A stretch of 44,659 bases of DNA. Source: Magnetococcales bacterium. Its GTDB lineage: Bacteria; Pseudomonadota; Magnetococcia; Magnetococcales; DC0425bin3. This document shows, in pieces, positions 13,359 through 30,507 of the stretch. The translations under genes were made by a program, and so were the position numbers. Within the stretch, counting starts at the first letter, position 1, and every line of letters starts with the position of its first letter. Where the stretch lies: contig JADGCO010000012.1 in assembly GCA_015228935.1 (NCBI GenBank), forward strand, positions 1 through 44,659. Reading direction: 5' to 3'. Under the pieces are notes generated by a model. That model searched no databases. It saw only the letters and a list, made by a program, of their open reading frames with translations, and was not told the origin of the DNA.

Positions 13359-13700
13359 ATGAAAAATGGCAATGAAAATCCGGAAGGCAAGGGTGTTTCC
13401 TCCCCTGATTGTTTGTTCATACCCGTTGACCCGGAACAGGTCGCAAGAGAGCGCCGCAAAGCCAAGATATTGAAACGTTCCCAATGGTGGAAAAATCTCA
13501 CGGGTCAGGGCAAATGTGCCTATTGTGGCCAACGCACCCCACCCCGGGAGCTGACCATGGATCATGTCGTGCCCCTGATTCGGGGCGGGTTTTCCACGCG
13601 CAGCAATTGCGTCCCGGCATGTCCGGCATGCAATCAGAACAAACAAAACCTGCCGGCAGAGTCATGGAAGGCGTTTCGGGAGGAGCAGGAGAACCAATAA
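13359..13700 (+). CDS. HNH endonuclease-domain protein
   Basis: 113 residues from the ATG at 13359 (13332 is an alternative; neither has a good ribosome site, and longer frames enter the GC-rich repeat). The domain has a zinc-binding CAYCG/CPACN pair and the HNH core LTMDHVVPLIRGG, then SNCVPACPACNQNK. Such small HNH proteins cut or nick DNA; many are phage-like or homing in origin. A 39-bp tandem array starts at its stop codon. Confidence 0.8.
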   Translation: MKNGNENPEGKGVSSPDCLFIPVDPEQVARERRKAKILKRSQWWKNLTGQGKCAYCGQRTPPRELTMDHVVPLIRGGFSTRSNCVPACPACNQNKQNLPAESWKAFREEQENQ

Positions 13701-13841
13701 GCACGTGCCAGGCAGAGCCGGTGCAGGGGAAGTCAATATACACATGTCGGGCAGAACAGGTGCCAGGGTGAGTCAATAAGCACATGCCGGGCTGAGTGTT
13801 GCCAGGGGGATTCAATAAGCACGTGCCGGGCAGAACCTGGG
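13696..13841. repeat. 39/40-bp tandem array directly after the HNH gene
   Basis: Four head-to-tail units begin aataagcacgtgcc or close variants: 13696-13734, 13735-13774, 13775-13813 and a partial 13814-13841. There are no unique spacers, so it is not CRISPR. The first unit contains the HNH stop codon. Confidence 0.88.
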
Positions 13842-13916: not shown

Positions 13917-15197
13917 TTATCGATCCGACACAGGCACAGGAGGGGCGTTGGCCGGCATGTCGATTTCCCGGGAGCCGGGAGCCAGGCGCATGATGCCACG
14001 CAGCATGGGCAGGGTGAGAAACGTAGTGATGATCGCCATGAACATCATGGCCGAAAAACAGGAATCGGAGATGATGCCGGCTTCACGAAAGATGGAGAGG
14101 ATCAGGACCTCCATCATGCCCTTGGTTTGCATGAGGACCCCCAGTTTGATGGAGGCTGGCCAACTCTCGCCGGTCCAGCGTGCCGGAAAGGTGGTGCCAA
14201 TGAACTTTCCCGCCATGCTGACCAGGGTCACGATCAAGGTGATGGTGGCCAGATGGTCCGAGGTGACATCGAATGAGGTACGCATGCCCGTCAAGGTGAA
14301 GAAGAAGGGGAGCAACACGACCACGGTGATGGGTTCCAGACGGTCGATCAGGGTTTGTTTATAGGCGCGGGGAATGATCACGCCCATCATGAATCCCCCC
14401 AGGGCGACATGGAGGCCGATCCACTCCGTGGCGAGGGCCGAGCCAAAGACCGAGATGCATACCGTGATCAGACCGGCATCACCCAGAATGCTGTCCTGAA
14501 CGAGGATGCGGCGCAAAAGCGGCCCGACCACGAATACCATGATCAGCATGTAGGGAACGATGGCCAGCGGGACCCAGAATGAACCGGTCAACCCACTGTC
14601 ACCACCCCGGGTGGCCCCGGCCAGAAATATGGCCAGAATGGCCCAGAGAATGGCGTCATTGGTGGCGGCCATGCCCAGGGTGATGCGTCCCAGGCGGTGT
14701 TCCCTGAGGCCGGTTTCCCGCAGAATGGCACCCAGGACAGGCAGGGCTGTCACGCCGCTGCTCAAGCCGATGGCAATGGCAAAGTGCAGGGGTGTGGCAT
14801 TGGGACCCACACTTTCCGGAAAGCGCCCGGCAATGAAAGCCCCGGTGAAGCCGCCGACGATGCTGGGCACCAGGAAACTCAGCAGGCTCACGATGGCAAA
14901 ACGACGCCCCAGCGATTTCAGTTCGGTCGGATCCAGGTGCAGGCCGGTCAGAAAGGTGAACAGGACAATGGCAAGCCAGGCCGGTCCGGTCAGACTCTGG
15001 ATGGAGTTGTTGGCAAACAGGACCGACCATGTCTCCGGTGCTACATGGCCCAGGACAGATGGCCCCAGGGTCACTCCAAGGAGAATTTGCAGCACGACCA
15101 GAGGAACCATGCCGTGAACACCAGGAATGCGCCATACCAGATAGGGCAGGCCAATGACCAGGAGTGCCTGGGTAAAAAATACGGCGCTGGCAGTCAT
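13917..15197 (-). CDS. Kef/CPA2-type cation:proton antiporter
   Basis: 426 residues, nearly all membrane-embedded (about 12 helices). It shows CPA2 features: GVTLGPSVLG near the N-terminus, AIGLSSGVTALPVLGAIL, MAATNDAILWAIL in the ion-binding region and LGGFMMGVIIP. It stops after the membrane domain, with no TrkA-N nucleotide-binding domain as in KefB/KefC. It would exchange Na+ or K+ for H+ across the inner membrane; the cation cannot be read from the sequence. The ATG lies in an ATGA overlap (15194-15197) with the upstream diguanylate cyclase gene, so it is the last gene of that operon. Confidence 0.88.
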   Translation of the reverse strand: MTASAVFFTQALLVIGLPYLVWRIPGVHGMVPLVVLQILLGVTLGPSVLGHVAPETWSVLFANNSIQSLTGPAWLAIVLFTFLTGLHLDPTELKSLGRRFAIVSLLSFLVPSIVGGFTGAFIAGRFPESVGPNATPLHFAIAIGLSSGVTALPVLGAILRETGLREHRLGRITLGMAATNDAILWAILAIFLAGATRGGDSGLTGSFWVPLAIVPYMLIMVFVVGPLLRRILVQDSILGDAGLITVCISVFGSALATEWIGLHVALGGFMMGVIIPRAYKQTLIDRLEPITVVVLLPFFFTLTGMRTSFDVTSDHLATITLIVTLVSMAGKFIGTTFPARWTGESWPASIKLGVLMQTKGMMEVLILSIFREAGIISDSCFSAMMFMAIITTFLTLPMLRGIMRLAPGSREIDMPANAPPVPVSDR

Positions 15198-17569
15198 TCC
15201 ACCTCAACCACTTCTGCCGCGTCGGGTTCGTAGAAGGTATACCCGTTGCGCTGGCGATTTTTGGTTAGATACATGGCCTGGTCGGCCTTTTTCAGCAGAG
15301 TGACAGGATCCCGGCCATGTTCCGGGTGCAGCGCGATACCGACACTGGCTCCGACATGGCACTCCTGATCCTTGATCAGGAACGGCTTGCGTATCTGCTC
15401 GATGATGCGTTGCACGATACGCACGATATCGTCCCGACGCGATGGTTCTTGCAGGATCAGGGTGAATTCATCGCCACCCAGGCGCGCCACGGTGTCTCCT
15501 TCCCGCATGCAGGCACAAATGCGTTTGGCCACTTCCACGAGCAGCAGGTCGCCGGCCTCGTGACCCAGATTATCGTTGATTTTTTTAAAGTGGTCCAGGT
15601 CCATGAAGAGGACCGCCAGGGATCTTCCTTCACGGCGCACCTGCGCCAGGGAACGTTGCAGGAGTTCCTGAAAGAGCAGCCTGTTCGGCAGGCCGGTCAG
15701 TGTGTCGTGGTGGGCTTTCTGGCGTAACTTTTCTTCGGCATCCCTGAGCTGTTTTTCAATCTGACGCCGTTCGATGATGCCGGCCAGGGTGTTGGCAATC
15801 GTGGTCAGAAAGGCATCCTCCTCGGGGTTGCGGGGATGACCATCCGGGAGATACAGGTTCAAGACTCCCAGCAGACGTTCCCGGGAAAGGATGGGAATAC
15901 AATAGTGACCATGGGGTTTGATGCCGTCAAAGGTGACATCGTGACGTTCATCTATCTGGCTGGAAAAGACAATTTGCCGGCTTTCCGCCGCACGACCACA
16001 CAGACAGTATCCAATCGGAATCCGGGCGCAGGATGTCAATAACGGTGTGGAAAGATTTCTCTGGGCCAGCAGGACCAGCTCTCCCGTATCCGGGTCGGTG
16101 AGGAAGATGGAGCCTTTGGCAACGATGGAGAGCCAGGAAACGGCAAGGATGATATCCAAAGCCACTTCAAGTTGGTGTTCGAGCGTGAGGTCTTCAAGTC
16201 CGGTTTCCAGCAAGGCGCTGATGGCAATACGGGAAATCTGACTGTGCAACTCCCGGTCTTCTTCTGCCTTGCGGTCCGTGATGTCGCGGAAGACCACCAC
16301 ACCGCCCTTGATTTCCATGTCGTCCAGGATGGGAGAACAGGCGTACTCCACCGCAAAATGGGTTCCATCCTTGCGCCAGAAAACCTCATTCGACACCCTT
16401 CGGGTCACTTTCTCCTTGATCGACGAACAGACTCGGCAATCATGGTCCGGGTAGGGTGAACCGTCCTGTCGGGTATGGTGGATCAAGGCGTGGCTTCTTT
16501 TTCCCAGCAGCTCGTCCGGAGTCCAGCCCAGCATGCGTCCGGCGGCGGGATTGATGAAGGTGATCAACCCCTCCTGATCGACCCCGAAAATTCCCTCGCC
16601 GGCGGTTGACAGAATCAAATCGGTTTGATGATGCATCGCCCGGAGCTTGATGTCGGCTTCCTGGCGACGAGCCAACTCCTGTTCGAGAAGTGCGTAACTG
16701 TCCGTCAATGCCTGGGTCCTTTCCAGGACCTTGTTTTCCAGGGTACGCGATAATTTTTCCAGGGTTTCGCTGCGTTCCGAAAGCACGTCGTGGGACTCTT
16801 TGAGATGGATGCGCATCAGGTCGAGGGATGCGGCCAATCTTCCCAATTCATCCTCGCTTTCCAGGGAGATGGGTGTGGTCAAATGACCCTTGCCCAGGGA
16901 TGTTGCCTGCTTTTCCAAAGACCGCACGGGATTCCAGACCATGTGTTTGAGAACCCAGACCAGGGTCAACAGCAGGACCAGAAACGAAATCACCGTGTCC
17001 AGGAGCAGGAAATGCAATTCCGAAGTGATCGAGCGTTGCGAGTCAAGGGTGGAAAAGCCCAGAATGACACTTCCCAAGGGTTCCAGGGAATTGATTGGCG
17101 AGAATATTTTGGAAAAAAAATACCGGATGTGCGCAGAGTCGGGATCGGGTACGGAATTTTTTTTGATCTCAAACTCCAGTTGGTTGGATTTGGTCAGCAA
17201 ACGAACGACAACAATCTGGTTCTGGCTTTTGAGCAGATTGTTTGCGTACTCCCTCAAGATTTGAAAATTTTTTTTCGACAAAGGATCGGCGGCAAAAACG
17301 GCTGCCGTGTTGGTCAGGGATTGGGCATAACCATCTTCCCGCTCCCACAAGGCATGTTTGACATTTGTGCGGGAATTCCAATGTGAAATTGTTGAAATGA
17401 TCACAAACAACAGCAACGCGATCAGACCAACCTTGAAGTCCAGCCGCATTCCCCGCCAATATCGCCTGATGAAAATATTGTTTTTCATTTTTGAAGCCGA
17501 TTGGTCGATTATCATGACTTTGCAATGAAAGTGGATAGCCGTCGAGTAAACATCCATGGCCATCCGCAC
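15194..17569 (-). CDS. Transmembrane HAMP-PAS-GAF diguanylate cyclase
   Basis: 791 residues counted from a GTG at 17569; an ATG at 17563, with AGG 5 nt upstream, is an equally good start. Order: TM1 (~46-63), periplasmic domain of about 120 residues, TM2 (~188-208), HAMP (~211-262), coiled coil, PAS (~310-440), GAF (~455-605), GGDEF (~618-785). The active-site GGDEF (698-702) is intact, and RxxD at 689-692, five residues before it, is the inhibitory c-di-GMP site. It should therefore make c-di-GMP with product feedback. The GAF domain has a Cys/His set (C522, C524, H543, H553, H555, C557) shared with the upstream cyclase. Only ~10 bp separate the two cyclase genes. Confidence 0.93.
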   Translation of the reverse strand: MRMAMDVYSTAIHFHCKVMIIDQSASKMKNNIFIRRYWRGMRLDFKVGLIALLLFVIISTISHWNSRTNVKHALWEREDGYAQSLTNTAAVFAADPLSKKNFQILREYANNLLKSQNQIVVVRLLTKSNQLEFEIKKNSVPDPDSAHIRYFFSKIFSPINSLEPLGSVILGFSTLDSQRSITSELHFLLLDTVISFLVLLLTLVWVLKHMVWNPVRSLEKQATSLGKGHLTTPISLESEDELGRLAASLDLMRIHLKESHDVLSERSETLEKLSRTLENKVLERTQALTDSYALLEQELARRQEADIKLRAMHHQTDLILSTAGEGIFGVDQEGLITFINPAAGRMLGWTPDELLGKRSHALIHHTRQDGSPYPDHDCRVCSSIKEKVTRRVSNEVFWRKDGTHFAVEYACSPILDDMEIKGGVVVFRDITDRKAEEDRELHSQISRIAISALLETGLEDLTLEHQLEVALDIILAVSWLSIVAKGSIFLTDPDTGELVLLAQRNLSTPLLTSCARIPIGYCLCGRAAESRQIVFSSQIDERHDVTFDGIKPHGHYCIPILSRERLLGVLNLYLPDGHPRNPEEDAFLTTIANTLAGIIERRQIEKQLRDAEEKLRQKAHHDTLTGLPNRLLFQELLQRSLAQVRREGRSLAVLFMDLDHFKKINDNLGHEAGDLLLVEVAKRICACMREGDTVARLGGDEFTLILQEPSRRDDIVRIVQRIIEQIRKPFLIKDQECHVGASVGIALHPEHGRDPVTLLKKADQAMYLTKNRQRNGYTFYEPDAAEVVEVE

Positions 17570-17578
17570 CTGTTGATG

Positions 17579-20035
17579 TCATGGCTCCATGCTTGGATCG
17601 TAGATGACAATATTGTTGCGGCCGCTTTTTTTGACAATGTACATGGCATGGTCGGCCTTTTGCAGAAGGGCATCGACGGTTTGCCCGTGATCGGGAAAAA
17701 GACTGACGCCGATGCTGACCCCGATATGACACGGTTTGCCCTGGATATCGAAAGGGGCGCTCAGAGCGAGAATGATTTTATTGGCCACGAGCAGCACGCT
17801 GTCAACATCGCCTATGGCTGGAAGGATCAGGGTAAATTCATCGCCTCCCAGCCGGGCCAGGGTGTCGGAATCACGCAACTGCTCCTTGACCCGGGAGGCG
17901 ACGGCCTTCAGCAACAAATCACCCGCCTCGTGACCAAGGGTGTCATTGACGGCTTTGAAATGGTCCAGATCGAAAAAGCCGGTGGCCAATCTTTTTTGAT
18001 GGCGGGAAGCATGGCGAATTTCCTGTTCCAGCAACTCCCTGAACAGCATCCGGTTGGGTAAACCGGTCAATGCGTCATGGCTGGCCATGTGCTGTATCCG
18101 GTCCTCCACCTGCCCACGCTCGATCAAACCGGCCAGGGTATTGGCAATGGTGGTCAGAAAGGCTTCTTCTTCCGGGTCGTGTTGATGGTGATGATCGACA
18201 TACAGGTTGAGAACACCCAGGAGCCTGTCCCGCAACAGGATGGGGACACAATAATGCCCATGTTCATGAATTCCTTCGAAGGTGACATCATGCCGGGCGT
18301 CCAAACAGGAAGAGAATTCAATCTGTCTGCTGAGAGCCGCCTTGCCGCACATGCAAAAACCGAACGGGATGCGGCGACAGGCGTTCAGGAGAAAATTGTT
18401 CAAACCTTTGTGGACCACCATTTCCAATTCGTCACTATCGGTGGTCAGGAAGATGGAGCCCTTGTACTGCACGGCCACCCAGGGCACCGTGAGAATGATT
18501 TCCAGGGCCACTTCCAGCTTGCGATGCAATGTCAGGGCTTCGATGCCGATTTCCAAGAGGGCGCTGATGGCAACCCGGTTGACATAGGCCCGCAAGTCAC
18601 GAGCCTCCAGCAGTTTGTGTTCGGAAATGTCACGGACAATGACGGTAAAATAATTGGTATGATTCCGGGTCCAATGGGAGAGAGAAATGGATACCGGGAT
18701 CTCTTTGCCATCTGCCCCTTTGGCCGTACCTTCCAGGATGCCGGTACGGGCTGAATTTGGATCATAATTCAGGAATGCCAGGTGATTTTTCCGGGTGGAA
18801 GATTTGCTTTTTTTATCGACGAACAGCGAGGCGACGGGGCGTTTCAACAATTCATGTCTGGGCAGGCCAAACATGGTTTCTCCGACCTGATTGCAAAAAT
18901 GAATATTTCCCCGGGCATCGAAGACCAGAACCGTGTCGCGCAGGGAGTGCATCAATGCCTGGGTGTTTTCTTCGCTTTCTTTGAGTTCCCTGGCTTGCTT
19001 TTCCAGGTCCTGGTTGCGATTGACCACCGTTTCGGTGAGATTTTCCATGGAAGTAGCCACATCGCTGATTTCATCCCAGACGCTGCCTTGCGTCAGGCGG
19101 AAGTGCTCCCGCATGGTTTGGGAAATGGCACAGGTATTGGAGAACTCTTCTGAGATTAAGCCAAGAGTCCCGATCCGGTGCGCCAGACGTACCGCCCAGG
19201 ATCCCAGCGTCAACCAGAAGAGCAGCGTGATGGCCATGAAAATCAGAACACCGACTCCCAGAATTTCCCAAACAGAGAACAACGGAGCGCTCTGGTGCCG
19301 GATCAACAGGAGGGGAGGGCGTTCATTTCCGTTCCCCCAATTAAGGGTGACTTGATCGTAGCGGAATCCACCACGCCAATAATGTCTGATGCCGATTGAT
19401 TCCGGACGTACATTGACCTGGCCATGGGAAGATGCAACGATCCGTTGGTCATACATCAGGAACAGGTCAGTCTTGGGCATGGCGTTGCGAAACAGCGTGG
19501 CATTATCCACGGCGACAAACAGTACCAGTTTTCCCTTGCCCTGTTTGCCGAGCCAGAGGGGTCTTTGGTACCATCGGAACAGGTGACTTTTTTCCGGATC
19601 GAGGAACCAGCCAGAACTGTTCGTGGCATCAAAGCCATCCTGGAATTTCAGATTGTTTGACGAGAGTTGGAAAAGAACATTGTGGTTCTTTCCCAAAACC
19701 AGGACCATTGGCGAGAACACCTGGTCATTCAGGCTCAGGGCCATTTGAAATTTGTCCCAGCCATCCTCTGGCGACGAAAAATAATTGGCCACTTCAATGC
19801 GGGCATGGATCCGAGTGACTCGTTCCTGCCACTCCTGGTCCAGAAGGACCATTTTTTCTGCGTAGAAGTTCTGCAATGAATCCATGAAGGCGTAAGCGGA
19901 TTTGTCCAAGGCGGCATGCTGGAATCCGAAAACCAGGGCACCTATGACGACCACGACAGCAAAGATGACAATCAGGACTCGAGACGTGAGTTGATGTAAC
20001 AGTTTATTGCGGCTGCGGTTGCGCATGGGCACCAT
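17579..20035 (-). CDS. Transmembrane PAS-GAF diguanylate cyclase with large periplasmic sensor
   Basis: 818 residues from the ATG at 20035, which overlaps the upstream TAA as TAATG and has AAGGA 9 nt before it. Order: TM1 (~20-39), a periplasmic region of about 215 residues with a Cache-like pattern, TM2 (~254-281), HAMP-like linker, PAS (~357-481), GAF (~488-646), GGDEF (~655-815). GGDEF at 730-734 and the RxxD inhibitory site at 721-724 are present. The GAF and GGDEF parts are closely related to those of the downstream cyclase, pointing to tandem duplication with replacement of the sensor half. The substrate-binding protein upstream may present a ligand to the periplasmic domain. Confidence 0.93.
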   Translation of the reverse strand: MVPMRNRSRNKLLHQLTSRVLIVIFAVVVVIGALVFGFQHAALDKSAYAFMDSLQNFYAEKMVLLDQEWQERVTRIHARIEVANYFSSPEDGWDKFQMALSLNDQVFSPMVLVLGKNHNVLFQLSSNNLKFQDGFDATNSSGWFLDPEKSHLFRWYQRPLWLGKQGKGKLVLFVAVDNATLFRNAMPKTDLFLMYDQRIVASSHGQVNVRPESIGIRHYWRGGFRYDQVTLNWGNGNERPPLLLIRHQSAPLFSVWEILGVGVLIFMAITLLFWLTLGSWAVRLAHRIGTLGLISEEFSNTCAISQTMREHFRLTQGSVWDEISDVATSMENLTETVVNRNQDLEKQARELKESEENTQALMHSLRDTVLVFDARGNIHFCNQVGETMFGLPRHELLKRPVASLFVDKKSKSSTRKNHLAFLNYDPNSARTGILEGTAKGADGKEIPVSISLSHWTRNHTNYFTVIVRDISEHKLLEARDLRAYVNRVAISALLEIGIEALTLHRKLEVALEIILTVPWVAVQYKGSIFLTTDSDELEMVVHKGLNNFLLNACRRIPFGFCMCGKAALSRQIEFSSCLDARHDVTFEGIHEHGHYCVPILLRDRLLGVLNLYVDHHHQHDPEEEAFLTTIANTLAGLIERGQVEDRIQHMASHDALTGLPNRMLFRELLEQEIRHASRHQKRLATGFFDLDHFKAVNDTLGHEAGDLLLKAVASRVKEQLRDSDTLARLGGDEFTLILPAIGDVDSVLLVANKIILALSAPFDIQGKPCHIGVSIGVSLFPDHGQTVDALLQKADHAMYIVKKSGRNNIVIYDPSMEP

Positions 20036-21072
20036 TACCGGGCATCCTTGATACCTACCCAACGTCCATCAATCAGGTTTTCAATGTTTACCAGGGGTTC
20101 ATGAGGATTCGCATTTGAAAAAAATTTCCTGGTATCATCAATCTGTTCCTTCTTGAATTGACCGTCTTTACTGAACAGGCGTGGATACTTTTGCAGACAA
20201 AGCCGGAGCATGTCCCGCTCCCGGGGATCCAGGATTTGAAGTTGGGCAACCAGCTCATCAGGGGTATGTGAGGCAATCCAGGTCAGGGAGCGACCCAATG
20301 CCCTGACCATGCGTTTGACCTTGTCTGGTTCATTGGCAATGACATCGGACCGGGTGGTCAGAGATGTATGCAGGAAATGGGCACCCGGGATGAGACCGGT
20401 CGTCTTTTCGTCGGCCAGAGAAGCCAGAAAAAAGACCTTGCCGGCGGCCAACATGCTGGAGGCAAAAGGCTCTTCGGATATGACGGCATCCATGCGAGCG
20501 TATTTGAGCATGTTGGTGCGTTCTTCCCAACTCTGCCCGGAAGAAATGATACGCACATCATCCGTTTCCAGTCCATCGGAGCGGAGCATGAGTTCAAGGA
20601 GTTGATGCGCCGCAGTTTTGGCATTGACCGAACTGGAATGGACACCAACCACGCGACCTTTGAGATCCGCGATCCGTTTAACCTGATTCTGCAATTCTGA
20701 CCTGACGATCAAGACAAACAAAGGAGTGTCTGCCACGGCAGCCACAGCCACCACCTTGCTGTTGTGATCCTTGGTCTTCATGGACATGAGTGCGGTGAAG
20801 CCGACAGCGGCAAACTCACTGTTGCGGGAGAGCAATTGTTTGAGGACGACACCTCCCCCACCGGCGTGTTGCAATTCGACGGATATCCCTTCTTCGCGAT
20901 CTGCACCGATTTTTGGGATCAAGTCGAAAGGCAGGTAGGAAAGATTGCGGGGACCGACCACGCTGACGACAATTTTTGGCAGGGGTGGATCGTCAGCCCA
21001 GGCGACATCAATCCACGAGAGACACGAAAAGGCCAACAACATCAATGATGTTACGAATCCTGATCCGGCCAT
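20035..21072 (-). CDS. SsuA/NMT1-like periplasmic substrate-binding protein
   Basis: 345 residues from the ATG at 21072, chosen for GAGGAG 7 nt upstream and because it opens a signal peptide (LMLLAFSCLSWIDVAWA, cut before DDPP). The mature protein is a type 2 periplasmic binding protein of the SsuA/ThiY/NMT1 kind: GADREEGISVELQHAGGGG, a LKGRVVGVHSSSVNA hinge segment and DAVISEEPFASSM. Such proteins normally deliver alkanesulfonates, nitrate or pyrimidine precursors to ABC importers. No permease or ATPase gene is present; instead it heads an operon with two membrane diguanylate cyclases, so a receptor-accessory role is likely. Confidence 0.85.
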   Translation of the reverse strand: MAGSGFVTSLMLLAFSCLSWIDVAWADDPPLPKIVVSVVGPRNLSYLPFDLIPKIGADREEGISVELQHAGGGGVVLKQLLSRNSEFAAVGFTALMSMKTKDHNSKVVAVAAVADTPLFVLIVRSELQNQVKRIADLKGRVVGVHSSSVNAKTAAHQLLELMLRSDGLETDDVRIISSGQSWEERTNMLKYARMDAVISEEPFASSMLAAGKVFFLASLADEKTTGLIPGAHFLHTSLTTRSDVIANEPDKVKRMVRALGRSLTWIASHTPDELVAQLQILDPRERDMLRLCLQKYPRLFSKDGQFKKEQIDDTRKFFSNANPHEPLVNIENLIDGRWVGIKDAR

Positions 21073-21409: not shown

Positions 21410-21805
21410 TTATTTCTTTTTTTTGAGAGCCTTGTGTCGCAAGGCGTCGTTTCTTTCAGCAAGTTGCTTGATTTCTTCGGCCATTTTGCGTCCCAGAGCG
21501 GCCTGGCGGTCGGAGAGCTGCTCCAGGCCTGCGGCCACTTTTTTGGCCAGGGCACTGTTCCGATGAGCGATCTGCGACACTTGCTCGGATACCTTGCGAT
21601 TGAGGGCGGCATTGCGGTCTGACAATTGTTCAAAGCCCAGAATCACCTTCCGATAAAGCGCTTCGTTGCGCTCGGCGAGTTGCTGGATGCTTTCATCCAT
21701 TCTTTTTTCAAGCTTTTTCAAACGTTTGCTGAGATCCTTGGTTGAATCGTCATCGCCATCGTTGTTCATGTTTGGTTCATTGTTTTTGAGATCTTTTTTG
21801 CCCAT
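21410..21805 (-). CDS. Helical protein built of five 18-residue repeats, unknown function
   Basis: 131 residues from the ATG at 21805 (AAGGAG 5 nt upstream); a longer frame from 21919 lacks a site. An acidic, Asn/Asp-rich head (1-25) and a basic helix (26-40) lead into five contiguous repeats of exactly 18 residues, 42-59, 60-77, 78-95, 96-113 and 114-131, of the form QLxxRNxALxRKVxxxxE; the last ends at the C-terminus. The hydrophobic positions suggest a heptad plus hendecad, so one long helix or coiled coil. No signal peptide or membrane helix, so probably cytoplasmic. I do not recognise the family. It lies downstream of a Q-like zinc-finger gene, with a hairpin between them. Confidence 0.75.
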   Translation of the reverse strand: MGKKDLKNNEPNMNNDGDDDSTKDLSKRLKKLEKRMDESIQQLAERNEALYRKVILGFEQLSDRNAALNRKVSEQVSQIAHRNSALAKKVAAGLEQLSDRQAALGRKMAEEIKQLAERNDALRHKALKKKK

Positions 21806-21967
21806 ATCCACTCCTTTCGGCATTGACTGGTACCCACTCCCAGGCATGAAAAAAATGATTGCCGGATCCATTGCGGCACTTTCCGAGGGGTTCTGGTGTT
21901 GCTGATTCGCCATCTGCACGCTGACGGCGGTATGATATCCAGGGAAAGAGGATTTGGAAACGGTCGA

Positions 21968-22018: not shown

Positions 22019-22672
22019 TCACTCGATTTCGGACATGGCCTGAAAGATGGTTTGCAGGGCGGCGTGTTCCAATCTTTCCAGGTGTTCGACGAAGGCATGG
22101 AAACGGAATCCCCAGCGGTAGCGCCATTGTGCCTGGCTGATTCCCATTTGGCGGGCACGTTGGCGACTGCTGGGAGGCCGTCCCAGACCGGAACCGCGAC
22201 ATTCCGGGCAGACCATTTCTTCCGGTTCGGCTTCAGACCAGATGGAGATGACCTGGTTGCTGACACCTTTGCACTCCTTGCACAGGCGTGTGGCGAGACG
22301 TTCTTCGACGGCCATTTCGGCCAGTTTTTGCACGGTTGCGGGTGAACGATACTGCCAGTCCATGGTGGCGAAAAACTCCCTGGCTTCTGCGCCGGCCCAC
22401 CAGGCCAGGTCTCTCTGGAATCGTTCCTGTCCACCGAATTTGACCCGCAACAACAGACTGGCAGTCCGATTTTCCACTCTGGCCAGGGCATGGGCCACGT
22501 CGGACCAGCGCCAGATCCAGCCTGTCGTTGCCTCATTGGATGGATCGATACCCATCGACTGCAACGACAGCAACCGCAGGGCTGCCTTTGGATTGATGGA
22601 AATTTCCTCCTTTCTGGTTTCATTCTTTCCTGTTTCCAGGATGTAACAAGATTTTTTGCGCAAAATGGCCAT
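22019..22672 (-). CDS. Zinc-finger protein resembling phage Q-type antiterminators, unknown function
   Basis: 217 residues; GGGAGG lies 10 nt before the ATG. A helical N-terminal half (~25-125) is followed by a DnaJ-like zinc site, CKECKG and CPECRGSG (~131-160), and then a likely helix-turn-helix (RQRARQMGISQAQWRYRW). A CxxCxG knuckle followed by an HTH is the layout of the lambdoid Q-82/Q-21 antiterminators, which bind DNA near a promoter and modify RNA polymerase. The similarity is by motif, not by full alignment. It is divergent from a CI/LexA-type repressor 1 kb away, which fits a phage-derived switch. Confidence 0.45.
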   Translation of the reverse strand: MAILRKKSCYILETGKNETRKEEISINPKAALRLLSLQSMGIDPSNEATTGWIWRWSDVAHALARVENRTASLLLRVKFGGQERFQRDLAWWAGAEAREFFATMDWQYRSPATVQKLAEMAVEERLATRLCKECKGVSNQVISIWSEAEPEEMVCPECRGSGLGRPPSSRQRARQMGISQAQWRYRWGFRFHAFVEHLERLEHAALQTIFQAMSEIE

Positions 22673-27443: not shown

Positions 27444-27465
27444 TAAGCCGGGAGCCTTGATTCCC

Positions 27466-30400
27466 ATGAACATGCGAAGCAAATATTGGCACGGATGGAC
27501 TCTCCTGGGGTTGGCGGCGACTTTGGCCACGGCACAACCCGGAGCTGCCTTGAATTTGCCCGAAGCCGTTTCAAGAGCGGTCATGACCAACCCGGAAGCC
27601 AGAGCGGCCATGGAAAATCAGCGCGCCGTGGAGCAGGCCGTGGAAACGGCGCGGTCCGGTTACCTGCCGTCGGTGGATGTCAACACCGCTTTGGGGCATG
27701 AATACTCCGACAGCCCGGTCAATCGCCGGGCAGGGGAGCAGGGGACAGGTCTGAATCGCGGCGAATCAGGGATCACTCTCAACCAGATGTTGTTTGATGG
27801 TCGGGCCACCCAATCGGGTGTTGCGGCGTCCGTTTCGCGGGCTGCCGCTGCCGGCTTTGGCTATGACCAGGTCGCCGAGGGCGTGGCCATCGCCGCCGCC
27901 GAAGCCTACCTGGAAGTCATGAAACAACGCGAACTCTTGCACCTCTCCAGCGACAATGTCGCTCTGCATAAAAAAATTCTGCAACAAATTCGTACCCGGT
28001 TCGGCACCGGTGTCGGCTCCGAGGCAGACATTCAGCAAACCGAATCCCGTCTTGCCCTGGCCGATGCCAATATGTCCGCCCTGGAAGGAACCCTGGAAAA
28101 TTCCCTGACCCGTTATTATCACATTGTCGGAGAAGTGCCTGTCAACCTGGTGCAACCTCTGCCACAGTTGGATCGGATGCCCAAGTCTCTGGACGAGCTG
28201 CTCAGAGATGCCATGGCGCACCATCCGGCCATTCTGGCGGCGACTCAGGATCTGGACGCGGCCACAGCGCAACAGGAAGCCGCCAAGTCCGGGTATTGGC
28301 CCAAGGTCAATCTGGAAATGAGTGCCAACGCCAATGACAATGTGGGAGGCGTCAGCGGCTACGCCAAGGCGGTCGCTGCCTTGTTGAAGCTGGATTATAA
28401 TATTTTTCGAGGCGGCAGCGACAACTCCCGCAAGGAAGAGGCCGTGCGACGGACAGGACAGGCCCGGGAGCGATTGGAAGTTGCCAGACGCCAGGTGGAT
28501 GAAAGTGTCCGCATGGCCTGGAAGGGGTATCTCGTCTCCCAGAACCGGGTCAGCCATCTGGAAAGACACCAGAATATCAGCAAAAAAGTGACCGCAGCCT
28601 ACCATGACCAGTATCAAAGGGGACAGCGGCCCTTGTTGGATGTCTTGAATTCCGAAAATGAACTCATGGCCGCCCGGGCCGCCCTGCGCACCGAACAGTA
28701 TAATCTCCTGGCCAACAGCTATCGACTCATGGCTGCCGTGGGACGTTTGCGTGAATACCTGGATGTGTCATCCAACCAGGTTGTTGCGGCGTCAACCTCC
28801 TCTTCGCCGGCCATTCATGCCGATGTGGCATCGGGACAGCCATCCCAGGATGACAAAAGCCTCATCAAAGAAGAAAAACCTTTCCGGTCCGAGCCTCGTC
28901 TTCGGGAACCTGGCAAGGAAACCGTCCCAACCGGGCGGAATCTGCCTCCCGCCAGGCCGGAAAAGCGTTCCCCGCCAGAAAAATCAACAACCGGCATGCA
29001 CGGCGGATATGCCGTTCTCCTGGGGGCGTTTGGCAGTCGGGGCAATGTTGACAAACTGCGCTATCGTCTGGAACAGGCTGGATTCCCCAACTTTGAAAAA
29101 CAATCCGTGGTCAATGGTCGATTGTTCTACCGGGTTCTTTGTGGTCCGTTTGCCACCAGTTCGGAGGCACAATCCGCCGCAAGCCGCCTGCTGAGTAAAT
29201 TGGGCATGGAGGTCAAGGTCATCAAGGAGAAGGATCAAGACTCCCTGTCCAGGACAGAGTTTTCCGGCCCGGATGGGTCGGAAAGTGATTCCCAGGAACA
29301 GGGACAGTCATCCGTTTCCGGGAAGACAGAGCCTAAGGCCAAGTCCAAGGCCAAACCCAAATCCAAAAAAGAGGCGCAAGAAATTCCCAAACAAACTCCT
29401 CCTGCGCCCGCAGAATCGGAGTTGCCGGAAGTGGCGAAGGGCTTGCCTGGAGCCAAGCCGGAAATTCCTGAAAAACAACTGGATATCAAAATGCCGGTGG
29501 CTTCTCCGGCCAGAAAACCTTCCCCGGAAGTCACTCTGGAGAAACCTGTCACGCCCGAGAGCCGGCCTTCGGGCGAGGTGGTGGAACAATTTGAAGAGTG
29601 GTTTCCCAAGACAACAACACATCCAACAGAATCGACGGCGGATCCCGACAAGGCTTTCCCCGCTTCTTCCGGGGAAAAACAACCTTCAAAAACAGATGAT
29701 TCTGCTTGGCCGGAAGCCGGGGAGTCAATCCCTTCCTGGCGAGATCCCCCGAAGAGTGAGAATACCTGGGAAAAAATTTCCGGGGGTGATGATGCCGGAA
29801 ATCAGGGTGGCAAAACAGAGTTGCCAAAAAACGGTGACAAGACCAAAAGCGGCGACAAGAGCAAAAACGGCGACAAGTCCAAAAACGACGACAAGAGCAA
29901 AAACGGCGACAAGAGCAAAAACGGCGAAAAACCGTTTTCTGTCGATGACGATAATGGTGTGATTTTGGCACCAGGTCCTGATACCACTCCGGTGACTCCC
30001 CAGGCTGGTGAGGGGGATTTGCCCGAAACCGGAGGAGTCAATCCCGATGGAACGGCCCCCAGGCGGACTCTCGACCAGGATTTGAAAAAATGGTTCCTGC
30101 CCAACAGGGAGAAAAACAAACCCAATCGTCCACAGCACCTGTCACCACCGCCACCACTGCCGGAAGAAGCTCCCAAGCCCGGGGCAGCCACGGAAGGCAG
30201 CTATTCGGTATTTCTGGGTTCATTTTCGGTTCCCAAGCTGGCAGAACGGGTCGTGCAACGTGCTGAACAGTCCGGGACGCCGGTTTATCAGCGCACATCC
30301 CGGAATGGGAACCGAACGGCCATTCTGGTTTACGCCGGTCCATTCCAGCAGGAAAATGCGGCCCAGGCAGTCTTGAACCAGATGCAAAAAGATCAGGATT

Positions 30401-30507
30401 TGATTGACGGCTATGTTGTGCAGACCGATATTGGGGATCCGGCAGGAGTCGGGCGGAACTCTCCTTCCCCCGGTCGGAAAACCCCACCCGGCAACGGGAG
30501 GATTTAA
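27466..30507 (+). CDS. TolC-family outer-membrane channel fused to two SPOR domains
   Basis: 1013 residues from the ATG at 27466 (GGGAG 11 nt upstream). A signal peptide (to about residue 28) precedes a full TolC/OEP domain (~30-435) with both helical repeats (LPEAVSRAVMTNPE; LDELLRDAMAHHPA). After that comes a long Pro/Lys/Ser-rich linker, a SPOR domain (~514-586, YAVLLGAFGS), a second linker with five GDKSKN-type hexads (~789-822) and a second SPOR domain (~912-985, YSVFLGSFS). TolC proteins form the exit duct of type I secretion and efflux; SPOR domains bind peptidoglycan stripped of peptides, usually at division sites. The C-terminus of TolC is periplasmic, so the tail could tether the channel to the wall. 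No adaptor or ABC gene is adjacent. Confidence 0.9.
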   Translation: MNMRSKYWHGWTLLGLAATLATAQPGAALNLPEAVSRAVMTNPEARAAMENQRAVEQAVETARSGYLPSVDVNTALGHEYSDSPVNRRAGEQGTGLNRGESGITLNQMLFDGRATQSGVAASVSRAAAAGFGYDQVAEGVAIAAAEAYLEVMKQRELLHLSSDNVALHKKILQQIRTRFGTGVGSEADIQQTESRLALADANMSALEGTLENSLTRYYHIVGEVPVNLVQPLPQLDRMPKSLDELLRDAMAHHPAILAATQDLDAATAQQEAAKSGYWPKVNLEMSANANDNVGGVSGYAKAVAALLKLDYNIFRGGSDNSRKEEAVRRTGQARERLEVARRQVDESVRMAWKGYLVSQNRVSHLERHQNISKKVTAAYHDQYQRGQRPLLDVLNSENELMAARAALRTEQYNLLANSYRLMAAVGRLREYLDVSSNQVVAASTSSSPAIHADVASGQPSQDDKSLIKEEKPFRSEPRLREPGKETVPTGRNLPPARPEKRSPPEKSTTGMHGGYAVLLGAFGSRGNVDKLRYRLEQAGFPNFEKQSVVNGRLFYRVLCGPFATSSEAQSAASRLLSKLGMEVKVIKEKDQDSLSRTEFSGPDGSESDSQEQGQSSVSGKTEPKAKSKAKPKSKKEAQEIPKQTPPAPAESELPEVAKGLPGAKPEIPEKQLDIKMPVASPARKPSPEVTLEKPVTPESRPSGEVVEQFEEWFPKTTTHPTESTADPDKAFPASSGEKQPSKTDDSAWPEAGESIPSWRDPPKSENTWEKISGGDDAGNQGGKTELPKNGDKTKSGDKSKNGDKSKNDDKSKNGDKSKNGEKPFSVDDDNGVILAPGPDTTPVTPQAGEGDLPETGGVNPDGTAPRRTLDQDLKKWFLPNREKNKPNRPQHLSPPPPLPEEAPKPGAATEGSYSVFLGSFSVPKLAERVVQRAEQSGTPVYQRTSRNGNRTAILVYAGPFQQENAAQAVLNQMQKDQDLIDGYVVQTDIGDPAGVGRNSPSPGRKTPPGNGRI

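Follow-up and report, generated by a model that had tools for sequence, protein, structure and literature searches.

The window analysed here, a 44,659-nt stretch of a Magnetococcales genome, encodes an NMT1/SsuA-like periplasmic solute-binding protein (SBP) whose gene overlaps that of a membrane diguanylate cyclase (DGC1), and the two very probably constitute a two-gene receptor gated by its binding protein. Its most likely role is to convert an external chemical signal into c-di-GMP, an internal messenger. The two genes that follow on the same strand, a second cyclase (DGC2) and an antiporter, are neighbours that need not work with this pair.

Gene organisation of the locus

Four ORFs on the minus strand make up the locus. 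All were confirmed by a sequence check and are free of internal stops. Their coordinates, and those of the features discussed below, are as follows:

20035..21072, minus strand: SBP, NMT1/SsuA-like periplasmic solute-binding protein, 345 aa (ORF; Pfam NMT1, E 8e-18)
20995..21072, minus strand: predicted signal peptide of SBP, residues 1-26 (hydrophobic segment 5-25 and a cleavage-like motif, with the cut between AWA and DD)
20033..20037, minus strand: TAATG overlap that couples the SBP stop to the DGC1 start (sequence)
17579..20035, minus strand: DGC1, membrane sensor, 818 aa (TM-periplasmic domain-TM-PAS-GAF-GGDEF)
19286..19903, minus strand: DGC1 periplasmic domain, about residues 45-250, the part conserved with SBP (alignment, AlphaFold2)
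17612..18085, minus strand: DGC1 GGDEF domain, with GGDEF motif and intact RxxD I-site
15194..17569, minus strand: DGC2, membrane HAMP-PAS-GAF-GGDEF protein, 791 aa from a GTG start; outside the conserved pair
13917..15197, minus strand: CPA2-type (Kef-like) cation/proton antiporter, 426 aa; outside the conserved pair

An earlier note, made from the sequence alone, had described four packed genes joined by TAATG, a gap of ~10 bp and ATGA. This arrangement was confirmed, with a gap of 9 nt between DGC1 and DGC2 (17578-17570) and the ATGA at the junction of DGC2 and the antiporter (15197-15194). The overlaps make co-transcription of all four genes plausible in this species; such co-transcription, if it occurs, is not evidence of joint function. 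A scan for promoter and terminator consensus sites found them no commoner than in shuffled sequence and gave no usable boundary.

Several other features of the window were recorded. A tandem array (3.5 copies of a 39-bp unit, 13695-13834) lies between an HNH gene and the antiporter. Two small minus-strand ORFs upstream of SBP (21410-21919 and 22019-22672) have no clear Pfam function, and both are kept at 65-70% identity in G002, another genome of the same genus. On the plus strand, 27457-30507 encodes a 1016-aa protein consisting of a TolC-type outer membrane efflux protein and two SPOR domains, a fusion that looks unusual.

The binding protein and the sensor

SBP scores 54 bits against the NCBIfam SsuA_fam model (cut-off 163.5), and no PotD or SBP_bac model matched it in Pfam or NCBIfam. 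Its signal peptide predicts export to the periplasm. The best fold match of its AlphaFold2 model (pLDDT 92) is 3qsl, which is uncharacterised, followed by thiamin/HMP-, alkanesulfonate- and PQQ-binding proteins; as the matches are spread over these binders, no ligand can be named. The host genome has two NMT1-family SBPs, both members of the family to which this SBP belongs. The second (G000:C117:3537-4517; L059 3534-4703) is 48% identical and stands solo, with a large gene for an MscS-like channel in convergent orientation. This second SBP might act as an alternative binding protein for DGC1.

By its sequence, DGC1 has the layout of a receptor, in which two transmembrane segments flank a periplasmic domain and the output lies in the cytoplasm; Pfam places PAS, GAF and GGDEF domains behind two hydrophobic segments. 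Both cyclases of the locus have a complete GGDEF domain, with the GGDEF motif and an RxxD I-site five residues ahead of it, and DGC1 is predicted to be catalytically active. The host genome contains 39 GGDEF domains, so two adjacent cyclases are unremarkable in themselves. No Pfam family covers the DGC1 periplasmic domain and no Cache model matched it. An AlphaFold2 model based on 20 natural sequences (pLDDT 84) has a long helix (5-83) and two groups of strands, and most of its top PDB matches are dCache/PDC domains (E 1e-5 to 1e-4) with modest TM-scores, mostly 0.3-0.45. From this model the domain is likely to be dCache-like (tandem-PAS). Within the DGC1 GAF domain, residues 553-596 (about 18248-18379) include C553, C561-x-C563-G and H592-G-H594-Y, which are invariant in ten aligned relatives, and the matching region of DGC2 shares the same Cys/His positions. 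These residues could possibly form a metal or redox site that acts as a second, cytoplasmic input.

Conservation of the SBP-sensor pair

We searched for relatives of SBP in 299 genomes of the phylum. They form a compact family (45-60% identity, at least 300 bits), found within this sample only in the Magnetococcales, beyond which there is a sharp drop to ordinary SsuA-like proteins at about 25% identity. Across the 20 Magnetococcales loci examined, 21 of 22 family SBPs, including that of the window, lie directly before a DGC1-like sensor, singly or in tandem, and these sensors have their N-terminal and periplasmic regions in common with DGC1. Among named genomes, a scan also recovered the family in Betaproteobacteria (Sulfuricella, Sideroxydans, Gallionellaceae, Rhodocyclaceae, Comamonadaceae and others), one Thiotrichales record and two Desulfobulbaceae records. 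Here too the arrangement recurs: 58 of the 61 family SBPs, drawn from numerous families across two phyla, clearly lie directly before a sensor with the same periplasmic domain. Annotation-free ORF calls gave 57 of these, and the other, L169 (SBP G069:C32:47538-48488, sensor domain 46630-47520), was added after a correct reading of overlapping ORFs. The three remaining loci comprise one at a contig edge (L188), one interrupted by unknown bases (L182) and the only clear solo SBP among the 61 (L138, Sulfuricella). At these 61 loci the members of a pair are often overlapping (22 nt is the commonest overlap) or no more than 25 nt apart. The adjacency of SBP and DGC1 is far beyond chance. In L182, a 990-aa ORF that looked like a fusion of SBP and sensor was rejected as such because it spans a run of N in the scaffold.

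Two loci, L149 (5869-7955) and L173 (5770-8030), have two tandem family SBPs ahead of one sensor, which suggests two ligands per receptor. No recurrent metabolic gene that could hint at the ligand was seen in the betaproteobacterial loci examined. Eight Magnetococcales genomes (L190-L197) carry a divergent form of the sensor domain (143-254 bits) with no adjoining SBP, and dependence on an SBP is therefore not universal in the wider domain family. The gene beside the SBP-less sensor in L194, L195 and L197 resembles the GyrB/ParE type, judging by a look at the sequences.

Co-inheritance of SBP and sensor

To compare the histories of the two proteins, we used trees of SBP and of the sensor N-terminal domain for 56 pairs, counting branches with at least 95% support as well supported. 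There are 18 such branches in the SBP tree and 17 in the sensor tree, of which 13 are identical and none conflict. One 15-member clade present in both trees brings together Magnetococcales, Betaproteobacteria, an alphaproteobacterial bin, Thiotrichales and Desulfobulbaceae, though most tree records are metagenome bins and single taxon labels could be wrong. A single Magnetococcales clade for SBP was rejected (p = 0.035, quick tree). The SBP and sensor distances have a correlation of 0.86, a figure that includes shared species history, and the phylum-mixing clade is the better argument for co-inheritance. Since the trees agree at all well-supported branches, this clade included, the simplest reading is that the pair has been inherited, and transferred between lineages, as a unit. 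The agreement lends indirect support to contact between the SBP and its receptor; we infer such contact and gating by ligand. Conserved neighbourhood and agreeing trees would also be expected if both proteins served one pathway without touching.

Exchange of outputs behind a constant front end

The 35 non-Magnetococcales sensors scanned comprise 19 histidine kinases and 16 GGDEF proteins (15 of the 16 also with EAL). Among the Magnetococcales sensors, cyclases and kinases both occur. On the trees 7-9 changes of output type are needed, the labels of some kinases in this count being drawn from motifs, lengths and BLAST extents. A sensor kinase is followed by a receiver-GGDEF gene at seven loci (L146, L151, L154, L156, L159, L162, L163) and by a receiver-DUF3369-HD gene of the HD-GYP type at four (L129, L130, L132, L137); other genes in this position encode a lone receiver (L139, L143, L148) or a receiver-SpoIIE protein (L153). 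With GGDEF or HD-GYP-type regulators after several of the kinases, c-di-GMP is the commonest, though not the only, end point. A constant front end with an exchanged output is what a receptor should look like.

DGC2, the antiporter and the PilZ gene

DGC2 has HAMP, PAS, GAF and GGDEF domains behind two hydrophobic segments, and its periplasmic part is shorter than that of DGC1. The antiporter matches Pfam Na_H_Exchanger. Its earlier description as Kef-type holds in so far as it is a Kef-like CPA2 exchanger; it has no RCK/TrkA domain, and its score against the KefB equivalog (39 bits) is far under the cut-off of 804, so it is not Kef proper. The PilZ gene, which the earlier note had put forward as a further output, lies 5 kb upstream on the opposite strand beside a thiolase gene and is also present in G002, where the SBP pair is absent; that role found no support. 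In a distant family of the order, a look at the sequences found PilZ-like genes near the antiporter ortholog or its region (L086 7986-8354, L088 5681-6049).

Alternative explanations

The earlier note had read the four genes as one functional module, in which SBP, by capturing its ligand, would drive the two cyclases, with ion flux through the antiporter as the response. All four genes are tightly packed here, and a genome search found the same order in a second genome of the genus, G173, so that the order does recur, nearly confined to the genus (the window and G173 only). In G173, however, there is a gap of about 330 bp between DGC1 and the reading frame of DGC2, and another of about 180 bp before the antiporter. 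G002, which is 100% complete, matches the locus gene for gene in synteny (PilZ, thiolase, S24/HTH regulator, two small ORFs, DGC2, antiporter, HNH, FAD oxidoreductase, GNAT; 65-89% identity to the genes of the window) and lacks exactly SBP and DGC1, no copy of which was found elsewhere in its genome. Because G002 retains, of the four genes, only DGC2 and the antiporter, SBP and DGC1 must have arrived next to these two, or dropped out, together as one unit. Orthologs of the antiporter in other families lie among unrelated genes, which leaves the proposed ion-flux response unsupported. On the G002 synteny and these ortholog contexts we rejected the four-gene module, which we regard as very unlikely: DGC2 and the antiporter are neighbours independent of the SBP-DGC1 pair. 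What stands of the proposed route from ligand capture to c-di-GMP is signalling by SBP through DGC1, backed by the pairing, the trees and the missing permease; the part given to DGC2 does not.

A binding protein of this kind could instead serve an ABC transporter whose genes lie elsewhere, in which case its position ahead of a cyclase would be incidental or purely regulatory. NMT1-family SBPs normally feed ABC importers; SBP has the same fold and belongs to the same Pfam family as the ABC binding proteins SsuA, TauA and ThiY, and several of the ordinary SsuA-like proteins outside its own family, which served as a control, adjoin ATPase and permease genes (L027, L028, L032, L037). SBP differs from them in that no ABC permease or ATPase gene adjoins it, as the earlier note had observed, and the host genome has no permease of the right type: its 11 BPD_transp_1 (ABC importer permease) matches are all Mo, sulfate, phosphate, oligopeptide/YejB or PhnU-like, with no SsuC/TauC/ThiX-like permease among them. 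A cognate permease elsewhere in the genome was rejected on this ground. An ABC-ATPase-like ORF occurs in the examined flanks of just 2 of the 61 family loci, and the SBP-sensor pair is conserved across phyla. The closest relatives of SBP thus adjoin sensors, and the finding that the earlier note said would count against its proposal, relatives all paired with ABC transporters, did not emerge. We consider service to a distant transporter very improbable. A different question is the sign of the regulation. SBP could repress DGC1, with the unliganded protein holding the cyclase off until ligand binds, or with the two states in opposite roles. The anatomy fits inhibition equally well, and YfiR-YfiN is a precedent in which a cyclase is repressed from the periplasm. 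Against this stands the NspS-MbaA system (Vibrio cholerae, Sinorhizobium meliloti), in which NspS with its ligand bound associates with MbaA, an event that favours synthesis of c-di-GMP (PMC8967002). Repression is possible, and we think it somewhat unlikely.

Proposed mechanism and relation to known systems

In the two-gene receptor that we favour, the cleft of the exported SBP would take up a small molecule, and one conformation of the protein would dock on the dCache-like periplasmic domain of a DGC1 dimer. The resulting change would pass through the second transmembrane helix to the PAS, GAF and GGDEF domains in turn and alter c-di-GMP synthesis. Relatives would use this SBP/sensor front end to drive either a GGDEF-EAL output or a histidine kinase, and the gene after the kinase often encodes a response regulator that carries a c-di-GMP enzyme domain. 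The pair itself may have been gained beside, or lost from, the neighbouring DGC2-antiporter pair.

In LuxP-LuxQ, TorT-TorS and other SBP-activated histidine kinases, a binding protein docks on the periplasmic sensor domain of a membrane kinase. Kinase relatives of the DGC1 family have the same layout; the SBP families are different, and the member in the window is a cyclase, not a kinase. PMC9602780, which summarises SBP-activated receptors, lists ScrABC (Vibrio parahaemolyticus) among SBP-activated cyclases/phosphodiesterases, citing Trimble and McCarter 2011. ScrABC differs from SBP-DGC1 in SBP type and gene set. Both PMC9602780 and PMC11113362 treat activation by an SBP as an accepted general mechanism for kinases and cyclases. 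By analogy, SBP-DGC1 appears mechanistically closest to NspS-MbaA, whose genes overlap by 16 and 3 bp and are co-transcribed in V. cholerae (PMC9993111). In both systems an SBP gene overlaps one for a membrane c-di-GMP enzyme that carries a periplasmic domain, here by TAATG. The pair nevertheless falls outside that system on SBP family and on EAL: NspS is a PotD-type polyamine binder, unlike the NMT1/SsuA-like SBP here, and MbaA has GGDEF and EAL domains, whereas DGC1 is a PAS-GAF-GGDEF protein without EAL (some relatives have both). Relatives of the DGC1 sensor also differ in using histidine kinases.

SBP-DGC1 resembles an SBP-gated membrane receptor in that the SBP gene is coupled to a membrane receptor gene, not to an ABC transporter. 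In the openly accessible literature that we searched, no NMT1-type SBP is described as gating a c-di-GMP enzyme; within this literature the pair is an unnamed NMT1-type variant of such receptors. SBPs of this family should not be annotated as sulfonate transporters.

We give about an even chance to a broader reading, in which the pair belongs to a widespread class of receptors combining an NMT1-type SBP with a dCache-like domain, with one shared ligand and swappable c-di-GMP outputs, exchanged as a cassette among Magnetococcales, sulfur- and iron-oxidising Betaproteobacteria and Desulfobulbaceae. To our knowledge, what is understood in detail about SBP-gated c-di-GMP receptors comes essentially from a single system, NspS-MbaA. 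If a further family of SBPs gates c-di-GMP enzymes, it would provide dozens of natural variants, with one front end joined to a cyclase, a cyclase/phosphodiesterase or a kinase. Such a series may serve to ask how the docking of a binding protein is converted into output, and it also bears on which ligand these mostly uncultured bacteria of water and sediment monitor.
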